64,000 bases of DNA from Loigolactobacillus iwatensis (lineage in GTDB: Bacteria > Bacillota > Bacilli > Lactobacillales > Lactobacillaceae). The stretch lies in assembly GCF_003950295.1 (NCBI RefSeq), contig NZ_RHNP01000006.1, positions 1 to 64,000 of the forward strand, read 5' to 3'. The notes below the pieces were generated by a model. The model was not told where the DNA came from, made no database searches, and saw nothing but the letters and a program-made list of their open reading frames with translations. The position numbers and the translations under genes are program-made. This document shows positions 153 through 63,843 of this stretch, piece by piece (position 1 is the stretch's first letter; every line of letters starts with the position of its first letter).

Positions 153-2602
153 TTACAAGGACTGTTCAGTTCGTTCAATAATGTCGTCTTGAGTTTCCTT
201 TGATAAACCAACGAAGAAGGCTGAGTAGCCGGCAACCCGGACAATTAAGTCGCGGTGCTTTTCAGGCTGCTTTTGGGCGGCAACTAGGGTATCCCGGGAA
301 ACAATGTTGTACTGAACGTGATAACCGTGCAATCGATTGAAGTAGGCTCGCAGCAGCGAAACTAATTTTTGACAATTAGCCGTACTCCGCAGAATTTGCG
401 GCGACATTTTTTGGTTAAGCAACACGCCACCAGTGATATCCTCCGTCTGCAGTTTAGAAACTGATTTGAAAACGGCGGTTGGGCCTTCCGTATCCATTGA
501 GTGTTCAGGTGAACAACCCTCAGCCAATGGTGTTCGAGCGTAGCGGCCATCTGGCGTCGCAAGTGTGCTGTGACCTTGGCCCACGTTGGCCGAAATCGAT
601 GAGGTGCCGGCGTAACGCAAACCGCCAATTGGTCCTCGTCCAAAACGGGTATTGTGGTACTTAGCGATTTCATCAATGTAAGGTTGGTAGGCGGCAACGA
701 TTAATTGATCAACGTAGTCATCGTCATTGCCGTATTTTGGTGCGTCGGTTAATAACAGTTGGCGCACCTTTTCACCAGCTTCACCGGCAAAATTCGTTTG
801 TAGTGCGTGCCATAATTCTGCGGGGGTTAATTTATGTTCTTCGAAAACTAATTTTTTGATGGCGGCGAGGGAATCGGCTAAATTAGCGATCCCAACTTGA
901 AGGCCACTAATGAAATCATAAATGGCGCCACCTTCTTTAATCGTTTTGCCACGACCGATACAATCATCAGTCAAAGTGGAACACAGAATGTCGGGGTAAC
1001 CTTGTTCTAAGGCTAAGTCGCAACTATTTTCGATGATCACACTTTGGCGGGTCATTTCACGTAAGGCCTTATCCCATCCCAAGCCTTACTAAGTTGTTCA
1101 TAGGAAGTCATTTCAGTAAATTTACCGTAATCAGGCAACAGCCGCTTTTTAGATTCAGGATCAACACCACCGTTCATCACGATTAGCAAGGTGCGGGGGA
1201 AGTTGATGAAGCTCATGCCAGTGCAACGGTAACCCCATTTTCCAGGAACGGCGGTCTCGACACAGCCAATAGCACTGTAATTATAGGCGTCTTCTTTTTT
1301 AACCCCCCGGCGAATAAATGAAGGGATGATGACTTCGTCGTTGTTAAAGGCCGGCATGCCAAGGCCTTGTTTGATGACGGCGACACTTTCCAGCATAAAC
1401 TCGTTGCTGAGACCCTTATGGTAGCGAACAGTTAAGTTAGGCTGGGGTAAATGAGCCTGGGAAATTGCCCGCAGGATTAGGTAAGACGTGGGATTGACGG
1501 CATCTTTACCATCAGGCGTTTGACCGCCAATCGTGATATTTTGGTAAAGGGGACTCCCAGCGGAAAATTGGGTGTGGTTCCACGAACGTGCCTTGTTGAT
1601 GGTCAACGTTTTGAGACAAAGGTTGGTCAGCAATTCAGTTGCGTGCTCTTTATCAATAATCCCGGCCCGTAAATCTTTTTCGTAAAATGGATCTAGATAT
1701 TGGTCGAGGCGGCCATAAGAAACGGAATGACCGTTAGATTCAATTTGTAAGACTAAGTGAACTAACCAAACGGCTTGCAAGGCTTCATGAAAGCTCGTTG
1801 CCGGTTCGTAGGGCACCTTCGTTAAAATACGCGCCATTTCAAGTAATTCGGCCTGCCGTTTTTTATCGTTGGTTTCTTGGGCCTTCGTTCGCGCAAGTTC
1901 CGCGTAACGTTGGGCAAAATCTTTAACGGCCTGAATAGTTTTCAGACTTGCCTGGTAGAAGTACAACTTTTTTTGTTGCTCAATATCAGTTAAATCTAAT
2001 TGGTCTAACTGGGCCTGAACACGTTCTTCGTACCATTTTAGGCCCTTATTAATTACGTTTTTATAGTCAACGGCGATGTGGCCGTCACCAGAAGTGATAT
2101 TGCCGTCAGCGCCGATAACACCGAGATCATAGAAAAGCCGACTTTGCGGTGGGAAGGCAGCGTACCCGCGATCCTCTAAAGTATTGTTTTTCCAGAAAGG
2201 TGCGATCTCCTTGAGTTCTTGCTTTGTCTTATCAGTAATATAGAAAACATCGCCGGGCCGTTTCTCAAAGCTATCTAGCTCGTCAATTACCCAATTCATG
2301 GAATATTCCGGAAAAATAGGCGCCCAACGATTTTTCCGCGCCTGATTGCCAGCTAGTAGCGTATCGTCTTCAATGTAAAGGGTCATGTTTTTTAAAATAT
2401 TTTCCAATGTGTAAGCACGCAATAAATCAACTTGTTCGTGCTGGTGTTCCTTATAAGCCTGAGTCGTCAAAATGGCACGTTCGGCATCAATGTAAGGCTT
2501 CGCATCAATAATTGTTTCCCGATAATGAGCCATTCTAGGGGTTAAACGACCAAAGTGGCTGGTTTGTTCTTCTGTGTGCTTCTGGGTTTTTAATGTTTGC
2601 AT
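153..2602 (-). pseudogene. Glycyl radical enzyme (PflD/YbiW-like), frameshifted
   Basis: Two overlapping frames (1052-2602 and 153-1082) together make one GRE of about 814 residues, close to E. coli YbiW (about 810). The N-terminal part carries the thiyl-radical motif in YSAIGCVET; the C-terminal part carries the glycyl-radical motif RVAGYSAFF. The frame breaks at 1071-1080, where ATCCC is present twice in tandem. Removing one unit restores AWDKALRE across the junction, so the lesion is a 5-bp duplication. As read, translation stops after the active-site Cys and lacks the radical Gly. The start at 2602 follows a GGAGG-type SD. Neighbours (activase, FSA-like aldolase, DeoR and SorC regulators) match the E. 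coli ybiW/pflD contexts. From memory, unverified: this clade has been linked to ring opening of 1,5-anhydroglucitol-6-phosphate to a 1-deoxyketose phosphate that an FSA could cleave. Canonical pyruvate formate-lyase is unlikely, because that enzyme has adjacent Cys-Cys rather than GCVE. Confidence 0.9.
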
Positions 2603-2607
2603 GCTTG

Positions 2608-2715
2608 CTCCTCCTAAGTTTTATGGTCTATTTTGCGTCACCGCAAAATCCTATCGACGGAGGATGTCCATTCTCCTAACGCGAACACCGCGTACTCGAA
2701 GCATGGCCCTCCTAA
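2608..2715 (-). promoter_or_regulatory. Structured leader RNA with 17-codon uORF, upstream of GRE
   Basis: On the minus strand an SD (AGGAGG) is followed by ATG at 2704 and a 17-codon ORF ending TAG at 2651: MLRVRGVRVRRMDILRR. Within it lie a perfect 5-bp hairpin (ACGCG/CGCGT, 2679-2693) and the core AGGAGAATGG. A perfect hairpin ATTTTGCG/CGCAAAAT (2630-2649) and then AGACC follow, just before the GRE ribosome binding site. The arrangement matches the three tandem units at 62.55-62.86 kb base for base in spacing, with paired compensatory changes in both stems. Whether it acts as a leader peptide, a ligand-sensing RNA or both cannot be told from sequence. Confidence 0.7.
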
Positions 2716-11827: not shown

Positions 11828-12277
11828 AAATCCTCCAGGTATTTTTAATGTGGGTTGCAGGTCAATGATTAGGCCTCAACCGAAAGTTTTCACATTCCAG
11901 TATAACGTAGTTAAGTATTTTTGGTGGATATTTCATCTAGTAGCGAGGAAAACAAATAGTTAGGTCGGAAAAATATTTTGCGACTATTCCCTAATAAATG
12001 CGCAAATCAATCGCTAGCCCAGAGTGCAGATTGCATTTCAATTCATTTTAAAACAAGCAGCATTGCTAGCGAGGCCAGTAATGAGTGGCGCCGTAACTTC
12101 CTCTTGCAGTGCTGAATAATTTAAAATAAACGAGCTCGCGATACCTGCCAAGTTAAACAGTGCAACATTTTGGTTTGTATTTTAAAAAGGAAACTGTTAA
12201 TATTGTTAGGCAGCTAACGAATTGTGAAGCGTATTTTATGAAATAGATCCTGAAAACTGAGTAGGTGCCAGTTTCCT

Positions 12278-12372
12278 GGGCACAGGCTTCGTGCTAGGAG
12301 AATGGTTATACTAGCGCAGTAAATGGGAAGACAACAAAATTCGCTGTCCTTAACAGCAGGGGTTGTTACTGA
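12278..12372 (+). promoter_or_regulatory. Structured leader RNA upstream of MarR-MFS operon
   Basis: The 587-base gap before the MarR gene holds a member of the leader family also seen at 2608-2715 and 62551-62855. P1 is GCAC/GTGC (12280-12283 with 12291-12294), in the same 18-nt frame as in the other copies, followed at once by AGGAGAATGG (12296-12305). P2 is TTAT/GTAA (12306-12322). A longer third stem-loop contains CAAC/GTTG and GCTGT/ACAGC (12332-12365), then GACCATCC, which could pair with the core ATGGT. No 17-codon ORF is present here. The remaining gap (11828-12277) is AT-rich with no gene I can support. Confidence 0.6.
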
Positions 12373-12414
12373 CCATCCACAAAATTAATTCTAAGACTGA
12401 GGAGGTGTTAAACA

Positions 12415-12831
12415 TTGGAAGATTTTGGTCGCTTACTTAAAATTTCGGCAAATCAAATGGGACGGCGGTTCGATCAATTTGCGCGGCAGTATGAATTGAC
12501 GGGAACACAAATGGCAATTATTGATTATTTAAATCAGCATAAGGACAAAGAAATTTTGCAGCGGGATGTTGAGCGTGAATTCAATATTCAACGATCGACT
12601 GCGACGGTTTTATTGCAACGGATGGAAAAACGGAATTTTATTCGCCGAAAGGCCAGTGTTGATGATGCGCGGCAAAAAAGTGTTCAACTTACGCAACATG
12701 CGAAAGAATTGGAGAAGATTATTGCCAGTTATATGCGCGAGCAGCAGGAACAGCTTGAGGCCGAATTTTCAACTAGCGAGCTTGAACTTTTAAGCCGATT
12801 ACTTAAAAATTTGGTTCGGTTTGAAAACTAA
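12415..12831 (+). CDS. MarR-family transcriptional regulator
   Basis: 138 residues from a TTG start, with GAGGAGGTG nine bases upstream. It has the MarR winged helix: LTGTQMAIIDYL helix, recognition helix NIQRSTATVLLQRME, and a wing with RRKASVDDARQKSVQLT (the conserved DxRxK/V type). The C-terminal helices are for dimerisation. It is followed after 122 bp by an MFS exporter it probably controls. Ligand unknown. Confidence 0.88.
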   Translation: MEDFGRLLKISANQMGRRFDQFARQYELTGTQMAIIDYLNQHKDKEILQRDVEREFNIQRSTATVLLQRMEKRNFIRRKASVDDARQKSVQLTQHAKELEKIIASYMREQQEQLEAEFSTSELELLSRLLKNLVRFEN

Positions 12832-21429: not shown

Positions 21430-21727
21430 AGATTGATTTGGTTTATCCTAGTTCGATCGACAACGTCAGAAATCCTCAGAAGCTGGGCGCTTTTTCCTCT
21501 CTTCTGAAACGTGTTTGAAAAAGCAGCTTCTTCCGGTTGCCATGTTTCAACTTGGCGGTTTTTTGCCTTAGTTGAATGGACAACGTATGAAACATCAAGA
21601 TTATTAGCGGTTGTAGCTAATAATCCTCAATTGCGGAATAGTAGCTACAACCGCCAAATCATCTGTTTCACAGATAATTCGTCAGTTTAGGCTAATCCTC
21701 AGAAGCTAAACGCTTTTTCAAACACTC
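21430..21727. repeat. R1-type repeat, variant modules
   Basis: Begins near a TCGATCGAC module and contains CTCTTCTGAAACGTGTTTGAAAAAGCAG. It then has new modules: GCCATGTTTCAACTTGGCGG, ATTATTAGCGGTTGTAGCTAATAAT (a hairpin), TAGCTACAACCGCC, and the closing CGCTTTTTCAAACAC. The same variant modules occur at 59470-59728. It ends at the stop codon of the FtsX-type permease. No gene in this gap. Confidence 0.65.
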
Positions 21728-59469: not shown

Positions 59470-59728
59470 GTGTTTGAAAAAGCGTTCAGATTCTGAGGAT
59501 TACTAACGATGTCGATCGGACTAGGATAAACCGAAGTCCGAATCGCAGCCTAAACGGACGAATCACCTTTGAAAAAGATGATTTGGCCGTTGTAGCTACT
59601 ATTCCGCAATTGAGGATTATTAACCAAAAACGTTAATAATCTTGATGCTTCATCCGTTGTCCATTCAACCACGGCAAAAACCGCCAAGTTGAAACATGGC
59701 AACCGCAGGAATCTGCTTTTTCAAACAC
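59470..59728. repeat. R1 repeat, long modular unit
   Basis: Complete R1 ends (GTGTTTGAAAAAGCG / CTGCTTTTTCAAACAC) around the CGGACTAGG/GAAGTCCG hairpin and a second hairpin (AAAAAGATGATTTGGCCG side). The GTTGTAGCTACTATTCCGC, ATTATTAAC/GTTAATAAT and GCCAAGTTGAAACATGGC modules follow. It combines modules of the 14.46 kb and 21.43 kb units. Confidence 0.7.
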
Positions 59729-62550: not shown

Positions 62551-62855
62551 AATGAGGACCATGTTTCGAGTGTGCGCAATGAGCACTAGGAGAATGGCTA
62601 TCCGCCGCAGATAGGATTTTACGTTTTTTCGTAAGATAGACCTTATTATTAAGGAGGACCATGTTTCGAGTGTGCGCAATGAGCACTAGGAGAATGGCTA
62701 TCCGCCGCAGATAGGATTTTACGTTTTTTCGTAAAATAGACCTTGTTATTAAGGAGGGCCATGTTTCGAGTGTGCGCAGTGAGCACTAGGAGAATGGATA
62801 TCCGCCGCAGATGAGATTTTACGTTTTGTACGTAAAATAGACCTTATTATTAAGG
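62551..62855 (+). promoter_or_regulatory. Three tandem 100-bp leader units with 17-codon uORFs
   Basis: Start codons stand at 62561, 62661 and 62761, an exact 100-bp period. Copies 1 and 2 encode MFRVCAMSTRRMAIRRR, copy 3 MFRVCAVSTRRMDIRRR; each has 17 codons, but copy 3 stops with TGA rather than TAG. Copies 2 and 3 follow AAGGAGG, while copy 1 has the weaker TGAGG. Each unit has P1 (GTGC/GCAC within an 18-nt frame), core AGGAGAATGG, P2 (CTATC/GATAG, weakened in copy 3), P3 (ATTTTACG/CGTAAAAT), AGACCTT and a CCTTA/TAAGG hairpin that can mask the next SD. The last SD belongs to the GtrB-like gene at 62866. Same element as at 2608-2715. Confidence 0.75.
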
Positions 62856-62865
62856 AGGAAGCAGC

Positions 62866-63843
62866 ATGATTGGAACGCAAACACCGAAAATTTCTATTGT
62901 TTTACCAGTTTATAATGAAGAAGCTGGCATTTTGGCAACTATTGCGGCGCTGGAACAATTTATTTCTAATCAGGATGAAGCGTACGAAATGATTTTCGTG
63001 GATGATGGTTCAGTTGATGCCAGCGCACAGTTGATTAAGCAAGCGCGCCTGAACGATGACGCGATTCGGTTAGTTCAATTTTCGCGAAATTTTGGTCATC
63101 AATTAGCGATTACGGCAGGAATTCGCTACGCAACTGGGGATGCTGTTGTGGTGATGGACGCCGATCTTCAGGATCCACCGGAAGTAATTCCAGCGATGAT
63201 TAAGTGTTGGCGCGCCGGTAATCAAGTTGTTTACGGTCAGCGTCTCGGCCGCGATGGCGAGACTTGGTTTAAAAAATTGACGGCCAAACTTTTTTATCGG
63301 GTGTTAAAACGGGCGACACCGCTTGACATTCCCCTTGATACTGGTGATTTTCGGCTAATGGATCGCCGAGTGGTGACAGTTTTGGCCAAATTGGATGAGC
63401 CGGAACCCTTTGTTCGGGGCCTAGTTTCCTGGGTTGGTTTCAAGCAAACGGCGGTTACTTATGAGCGGCATGAACGAATTGCAGGTCAATCGAAATATCC
63501 ACTGAATAAAATGTTCAGTTTGGCAATTGATGGTTTAACGTCCTTTTCGGGACTGCCATTACAATTTTCCGTTTGGGCAGGTGCTGGTTTATTTTTGCTG
63601 AGTGTTGTTGCCTTTATTCGCATAGTCATCGGCGCCACTACTGGTGGAAGTGATTTATTGTTGGCCACGTTACTGTTAACAACCAGCCTAATTTTGTTCA
63701 GCATTGGTCTTGTGAGCACGTACCTTTACCGGATATTTGTCTCTTCACGCAAGCGGCCCTTGTACGTTGTCGCTGAAACAACTGGTTTTCGCCAGGTGAA
63801 GCATTATCCAAATTATACCGAATCCAGTCAAAAGTGGGGTTAA
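62866..63843 (+). CDS. GtrB/YkcC-like polyprenyl-phosphate glycosyltransferase (GT2)
   Basis: 325 residues. GT2 catalytic domain: SIVLPVYNEEAG, FVDDGSVD, DADLQDPPEVIPAM and the DTGDFRLMD stretch, then two C-terminal helices (about 235-257 and 265-290). GtrB-type enzymes load a sugar from UDP- or GDP-donor onto undecaprenyl phosphate. It lies after the PMT-like gene, with which it should form a two-step surface glycosylation system. Start ATG 62866 has AAGGAGGA from the last leader unit. Confidence 0.92.
   Translation: MIGTQTPKISIVLPVYNEEAGILATIAALEQFISNQDEAYEMIFVDDGSVDASAQLIKQARLNDDAIRLVQFSRNFGHQLAITAGIRYATGDAVVVMDADLQDPPEVIPAMIKCWRAGNQVVYGQRLGRDGETWFKKLTAKLFYRVLKRATPLDIPLDTGDFRLMDRRVVTVLAKLDEPEPFVRGLVSWVGFKQTAVTYERHERIAGQSKYPLNKMFSLAIDGLTSFSGLPLQFSVWAGAGLFLLSVVAFIRIVIGATTGGSDLLLATLLLTTSLILFSIGLVSTYLYRIFVSSRKRPLYVVAETTGFRQVKHYPNYTESSQKWG

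Follow-up and report, generated by a model that had tools for sequence, protein, structure and literature searches.

What kind of element precedes the glycyl radical enzyme (GRE) gene of Loigolactobacillus iwatensis, given that related copies stand before unrelated genes nearby? In the window, by which we mean the whole 64,000-nt stretch analysed, a first-pass annotation had proposed a leader RNA class in five copies on three operons. The window holds exactly five AGGAGAATGG sites, all where that annotation had placed them: 2668-2677 (-) in the GRE copy, 12296-12305 in the MarR copy, and 62588-62597, 62688-62697 and 62788-62797 in the gtrB copies. The adjacent genes had also been named correctly, with Pfam/NCBIfam identifying a PFL-like glycyl radical enzyme, MarR with an LmrB/EmrB-like MFS pump, and a family-2 glycosyltransferase; gene names outside the window rest on translated starts. 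The GRE gene is split into two overlapping ORFs, at window 153-1082 (-) and 1052-2602 (-); in reading order, the first covers PFL-like positions 3-490 and the second covers positions 489-647 and the Gly_radical domain. The split could reflect a frameshift, an error in the sequencing or decay of the gene.

The 18 nt 5' of AGGAGAATGG read GTACGCGGTGTTCGCGTT in the GRE copy, GGGCACAGGCTTCGTGCT in the MarR copy and GTGTGCGCAATGAGCACT in gtrB copies 1-2, with gtrB copy 3 differing by one loop base. The pairs proposed there (3-17, 4-16, 5-15 and 6-14) are borne out along with their compensatory changes, being A-T/C-G/G-C/C-G in the GRE copy, G-C/C-G/A-T/C-G in the MarR copy and G-C/T-A/G-C/C-G in the gtrB copies. 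These pairs belong to a previously uncatalogued repeat of ~100 nt, much larger than the element first described. Each unit consists, in order, of GCCATGTTTC, a hairpin (P1) with CCA and UGG at its base and a 5' bulge, GAATGG N CATC, an anti-Shine-Dalgarno (anti-SD), a second hairpin (P2) and a tail. The first pass had not noticed that the 3' end of the unit is itself the Shine-Dalgarno (SD) of the gene, nor that a matching anti-SD lies within the unit. The three gtrB copies form a single tandem array with a period of 100 nt, the MarR copy is a divergent, weak and longer relative, and a search with R1, a covariance model of 21 copies, revealed two further, less similar units that had gone unseen. 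Together with scores from R1 and from the full-length model R3, the features in the window are as follows.

2610..2707 (-): GRE-gene unit with P1, anti-SD, P2 and SD tail; R1 101.6 bits, E=3.8e-25; R3 84.6 bits
2668..2706 (-): P1 hairpin of the GRE unit, CCAUG...AGGAGAAUGG; RNAalifold, four pairs changed on both sides; covariation
2659..2663 (-): anti-SD of the GRE unit, CCUCC; guide/tail covariation and folds
2630..2649 (-): P2 hairpin of the GRE unit, AUUUUGCG...CGCAAAAU; fold and covariance-model helix 4
2610..2615 (-): tail of the GRE unit, AGGAGG, the SD of the GRE gene (ATG 2602-2600); sequence
2708..2713 (-): AGGAGG upstream of the GRE unit, alternative anti-SD partner; MFE fold
62558..62657 (+): gtrB unit 1 of 3, tandem; R1 93.8 bits
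62658..62757 (+): gtrB unit 2 of 3, tandem; R1 98.4 bits
62758..62858 (+): gtrB unit 3 of 3, tandem; R1 98.6 bits; the ORF at 62866 has as its SD the unit's tail AGGAGG (62853-62858)
12261..12346 (+): divergent marR unit with the same P1 type and a longer 3' part; R1 23.8 bits, E=7.5e-4; the leader has AGGAGG at about 12400-12405, before a TTG start at 12415
59613..59706 (-): related unit of the MITE-embedded type (GCGGTTGCCATGTTTCAACTTGGCG...); R1 27.3 bits, E=8e-5
21533..21627 (+): related unit of the MITE-embedded type; R1 24.9 bits, E=4e-4

How far the family extends was assessed at several levels. The window's genome contains the string AGGAGAATGGA 23 times and its reversed control not at all, and R1 returns 66 matches there at E<=0.01, about 30 of them above 50 bits. 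Relatives compared within the genus were L. bifermentans, L. backii, L. jiayinensis, L. zhaoyuanensis, L. binensis and L. coryniformis, and R1 matched all eight Loigolactobacillus genomes searched. The restriction to this genus that R1 suggested was overturned by R2, a P1 model built from diverse units, and by R3: among 301 Lactobacillaceae, the family is found outside Loigolactobacillus in 9 genomes by R2 and in 10 by R3, in four other genera, and Pediococcus parvulus is among these carriers. The covarying homologues beyond near-identical repeats on which the first-pass annotation had staked its claim are present in 8/8 Loigolactobacillus and 10 other genomes, and outside the near-identical repeats single positions show up to four standard pair types. 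The patchy occurrence beyond Loigolactobacillus fits horizontal spread. A blastn search with one unit as query found no plasmid- or phage-borne units, and an exact match in a viral contig (L191), like hits in Streptomyces, Paenibacillus and other distant taxa, looks like chance because P2 and the tail are missing.

The evidence for P1 as a conserved structure comes from 91 cores outside the own-species class, in which position 11-34 is A-T in 34, T-A in 25 and C-G in 22. The four variable lower-stem pairs are 88% paired in these cores versus 50% after permutation (maximum 57%), and sliding the register by one lowers pairing to 41-45% from 93% in the true register. For 25 diverse cores covariation scored 0.317 versus 0.127 when shuffled, and the observed score was reached in 0/500 shuffles, which leave relatedness among units in place. 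Descent alone would hardly yield four standard pair types at one position (13-32), or doublets such as U-A to G-C at 8-37. Rfam 15 covariance models placed no family in the window at gathering score, and scanning a two-unit locus at permissive settings yielded a single chance match (E=6.4). The proposal of a conserved RNA structure outside the known riboswitch and attenuator classes thus holds to the extent that a covarying structure, placed before translation starts, matches no Rfam 15 family. Nor did searches of the openly licensed literature find the repeat family described, although an earlier description in a subscription journal is possible. A second element of ~110 nt (CCAGTAGCAGTCC...GCGCTAGTG) is inserted inside some units, always between GAATG and G, as in the GRE and thrB leaders of L. 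backii (L199, L200) and on contig C27 of the window's genome.

Two types of tail distinguish the units. SD-type tails, which end in AGGAGG or a variant and serve as the SD of the next unit or of a gene, are found in the window's genome, L. backii, L. bifermentans and Pediococcus; TAG-type tails end in GTGAAGTAGA, do not carry an SD, and are found in the other species, often just 5' of the gene's SD or within MITE-like repeats. For SD-type units the anti-SD covaries with the SD, as is expected of an SD-sequestering leader. In L. bifermentans the anti-SD and the unit's own tail change together, from CATCCTCC/AGGAGG to CAACCAGC/AGCTGGT, CAGCCAGC/AGCTGGC, CATCCACC/AGGTGG and CATCCTTC/AGAAGG. Taken as a helix (P3), anti-SD and tail are 91% paired, and two of the positions have changed on both sides. 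Where the SD to the left of a unit differs from its tail, 18/19 units pair better with their own tail (for example, -11 vs -2 kcal/mol), and when tails were permuted among units the observed mean energy of -7.29 was reached in 0/300 permutations (mean -6.44, sd 0.19). Other genera show P3 changes at single loci, such as CCTTTTG/CAAAAGG (L272) and TTCGTTTT/AAAACGAA before a nagB-like start (L275), and because 19/1000 permutations over 16 units were as good as the observed guide/tail pairing, support for P3 in these genera is moderate. P3 is weak where TCATCCG or TCCGCCG faces AGGAGG, in the cvpA units with TCCAATG, and in the Pediococcus guaB leaders, and guide/tail covariation is not significant among TAG-type units (mean -4.6 vs permuted -4.8).

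The SD-type tails are also positioned to be used: an ORF start lies 4-10 nt 3' of the SD in 50/62 terminal SD-type units, and 4 of the 12 that lack such a start are at loci too short to score. This placement could simply show which insertions are tolerated. At five loci in L. bifermentans (L100, L168, L169, L177 and L188), SD-type units are followed by no gene and by a shared AAAATCGGCCGGGTGCGGTGCGC, apparently another repeat family.

Folding of the GRE leader gives two arrangements. Without the upstream SD, P1, P2 and P3 all form and the gene's AGGAGG is paired (-33.5 kcal/mol; z -2.8, with 0/200 shuffles as good); once the upstream AGGAGG is added to the fold, it becomes the partner of the anti-SD, leaving the SD of the gene about half free (-35.8). 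Compared with shuffles, single units have MFE energies that are only moderately better (z -1.8 to -2.8). An upstream SD would also suit a leader-peptide attenuator, in which an Arg-rich peptide (MLRVRGVRVRRMDILRR and a stop in the GRE copy) would begin at the ATG in CCATGTTTC, and its translation would open the anti-SD; the upstream SD is a good one, and the in-frame ORF ends just 3' of the anti-SD in 47/99 SD-type units. However, the stop precedes the anti-SD in 26/99, the peptide is altered wherever stem pairs undergo compensatory change, the Pediococcus units read GCCAGT and so lack the ATG, and inner units can carry the non-SD tail AGCTGG. As the reading frame is not conserved among SD-type and Pediococcus units, we regard such an attenuator as improbable.

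The genes downstream bear on whether the structure senses a metabolite. In the window's genome the units precede uvrB, ksgA, thrB, argD, cvpA, dhaL, a HAD phosphatase gene, MFS pumps, GRE and gtrB, several of which are internal to operons, and across the carriers nagB, luxS and guaB are added to this list; no common pathway is visible among them. A riboswitch class would be in keeping with the residues that are conserved in the UGGACAUC linker and at the P1 base, but tandem copy number differs between close relatives, and we rejected a metabolite riboswitch, to which we give hardly any credence, because uvrB, ksgA, thrB, argD, cvpA, dhaL, gtrB, GRE, MFS, nagB, luxS and guaB have nothing in common.

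Comparison of orthologous sites suggests that the units move. Sister species mostly have empty sites, with no unit in the ksgA, argD, thrB, dhaL, MFS and HAD intergenic regions. At uvrB, one subfamily is present in the window's genome and L. backii, another in L. zhaoyuanensis, a degenerate remnant in L. coryniformis and no unit in four species. Array lengths differ between the window's genome and L. backii, at 3 vs 1 (MFS), 2 vs 1 (ksgA) and 3 vs 5 (gtrB). In P. parvulus, a TAG-type unit in reverse orientation interrupts another unit 5' of a guaB-like start: GGATGTCC is followed by the insert, GCCATG...GTGGAGTAG, and then by TTCCTCGC, where the intact tandem neighbour reads GGATGTCCTTCCTCGC, a filled/empty pair that shows a clean insertion with no target-site duplication. 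The flanking repeats of 10-20 nt that might be taken for such duplications proved to be 3' tails of the unit itself that have been homogenised in arrays, and their upstream copies are degraded units. A similar guaB-like start is preceded by units in three species of the genus of P. parvulus (L265, L278 and L290), and certain positions may thus be ancient and conserved. Elsewhere (L264 and L267, in genomes G086 and G200), the unit lies inside a sequence of 197-198 bp that is itself repeated 3-5 times in tandem. The window's genome and L. backii also have dozens of copies of MITE-like mosaic repeats (L080-L087, L236-L255, L141 and L135), which end in GTGTTTGAAAAAGC / GCTTTTTCAAACAC, contain hairpin modules that are exchangeable, and are found both with and without the unit. 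Because units also lie between cistrons and inside MITE-like repeats, and their orthologous sites can be empty, a conventional leader class of five copies on three operons gives way to a high-copy dispersed repeat that is often tandem.

Such behaviour raises the possibility of a purely selfish dispersed repeat of the MITE, BOX or REP kind, whose structure, probably a single-stranded DNA hairpin, serves transposition, and whose match to an SD does no more than render insertion harmless, with no regulatory role. High copy number, presence within other repeats, empty sites, the reverse-oriented insertion of one unit into another and the lack of a common function downstream all agree with this, as does the GTAG at the end of TAG-type tails beside a hairpin, which is the layout of GTAG REPs; guide/end pairing of the kind seen in IS200/IS605-like elements could, moreover, mimic the anti-SD/tail covariation. 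Against it, the anti-SD follows the unit's own tail, including in the per-locus changes in other genera, and a hairpin needed for transposition alone would require no pairing to the gene's SD. We consider a purely selfish repeat a credible but minority reading. A separate reading, REP elements moved by a RAYT or an IS200/IS605-type Y1 transposase, would explain the GTAG or GGAG directly 5' of a bulged palindrome and the insertion without target-site duplication. Y1_Tnp is mostly absent among the 18 carriers, however, being missing from the window's genome and 5/7 other Loigolactobacillus (6/8) and from 8/10 other carriers, and the Y1_Tnp genes of G003 (intact) and G006:C119 have no unit-like sequence within ~700-1100 nt on either side, which makes this mover very unlikely.

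The reading we favour, and judge somewhat probable from the sequence comparisons, is that the repeat is a dispersed, mobile, tandem-amplifying element of ~100 nt, BOX-like in its behaviour, that would act in RNA as a portable SD-sequestering translational control element. The comparisons establish pairing potential and covariation, and from these we infer every functional step that follows. In the mRNA, the anti-SD would pair with the tail SD as P3 and lower initiation at the gene. Where an upstream SD is present, as in the GRE leader and in arrays, the anti-SD could switch partner and free the gene's SD, and a ribosome or protein occupying the upstream SD or P1 would set translation of the gene; the GRE folds suggest that the anti-SD chooses between two SDs, with an occupied upstream SD closing the gene. 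The element would spread by insertion beside translation starts without target-site duplication, followed by tandem duplication. A bolder extension, which we offer as speculative and rather doubtful, is a self-spreading translational switch that inserts by SDs and evolves an anti-SD for the local SD; its arrays would chain n anti-SDs among n+1 SDs, such that at least one SD is always free, and ribosome or protein occupancy upstream would determine where the free SD lies and thereby whether the gene is translated. If the favoured reading is right, dozens of unrelated genes across a genus have received one SD-controlling structure from a single repeat family, with independent arrivals at uvrB in different species. 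This would amount to an experiment, replicated in nature, on the capture of translation initiation by a mobile element that does not kill the gene. For annotators of food and beer-spoilage lactic-acid bacteria, it is a new and easily searched RNA/repeat family.

Several known systems share parts of this description. In translational riboswitches, ribosomal-protein leaders and RNA thermometers the SD is sequestered by an upstream anti-SD, as in the unit, but those structures precede genes of one pathway, whereas the unit is dispersed and often tandem. The MITEs with GTGTTTGAAAAAGC...GCTTTTTCAAACAC terminal inverted repeats in the same genomes carry one related unit as a module; the unit, by contrast, also occurs alone and in arrays without these ends, and shows in itself no terminal inverted repeats with target-site duplication. 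The GTAG REP/RAYT systems are alike in having a bulged palindrome right after GTAG (here in TAG-type units) or GGAG (in SD-type units), a high copy number and mosaic association with other repeats (PMC3733652, PMC2817692), but the unit is ~100 nt long with a second hairpin, its tails act as SDs, and most carriers have no RAYT; the text of these two papers names neither Firmicutes nor lactobacilli. The closest described behaviour is that of the BOX elements of Streptococcus pneumoniae, boxA-boxB(n)-boxC modular repeats (PMC3049150), a likeness of behaviour only, as a sequence relation to the units was neither sought nor seen. BOX elements are small interspersed Firmicutes repeats with predicted RNA stem-loops that lie 5' of many unrelated genes, have tandem modules whose number varies between strains, and have reported effects on expression (PMC3049150); the present repeat likewise has many copies, mostly intergenic, with unrelated neighbours and a tandem number that varies between relatives. 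Unlike BOX, the unit described here has no terminal inverted repeats, is self-contained, and ends in a Shine-Dalgarno with which its own anti-Shine-Dalgarno covaries.
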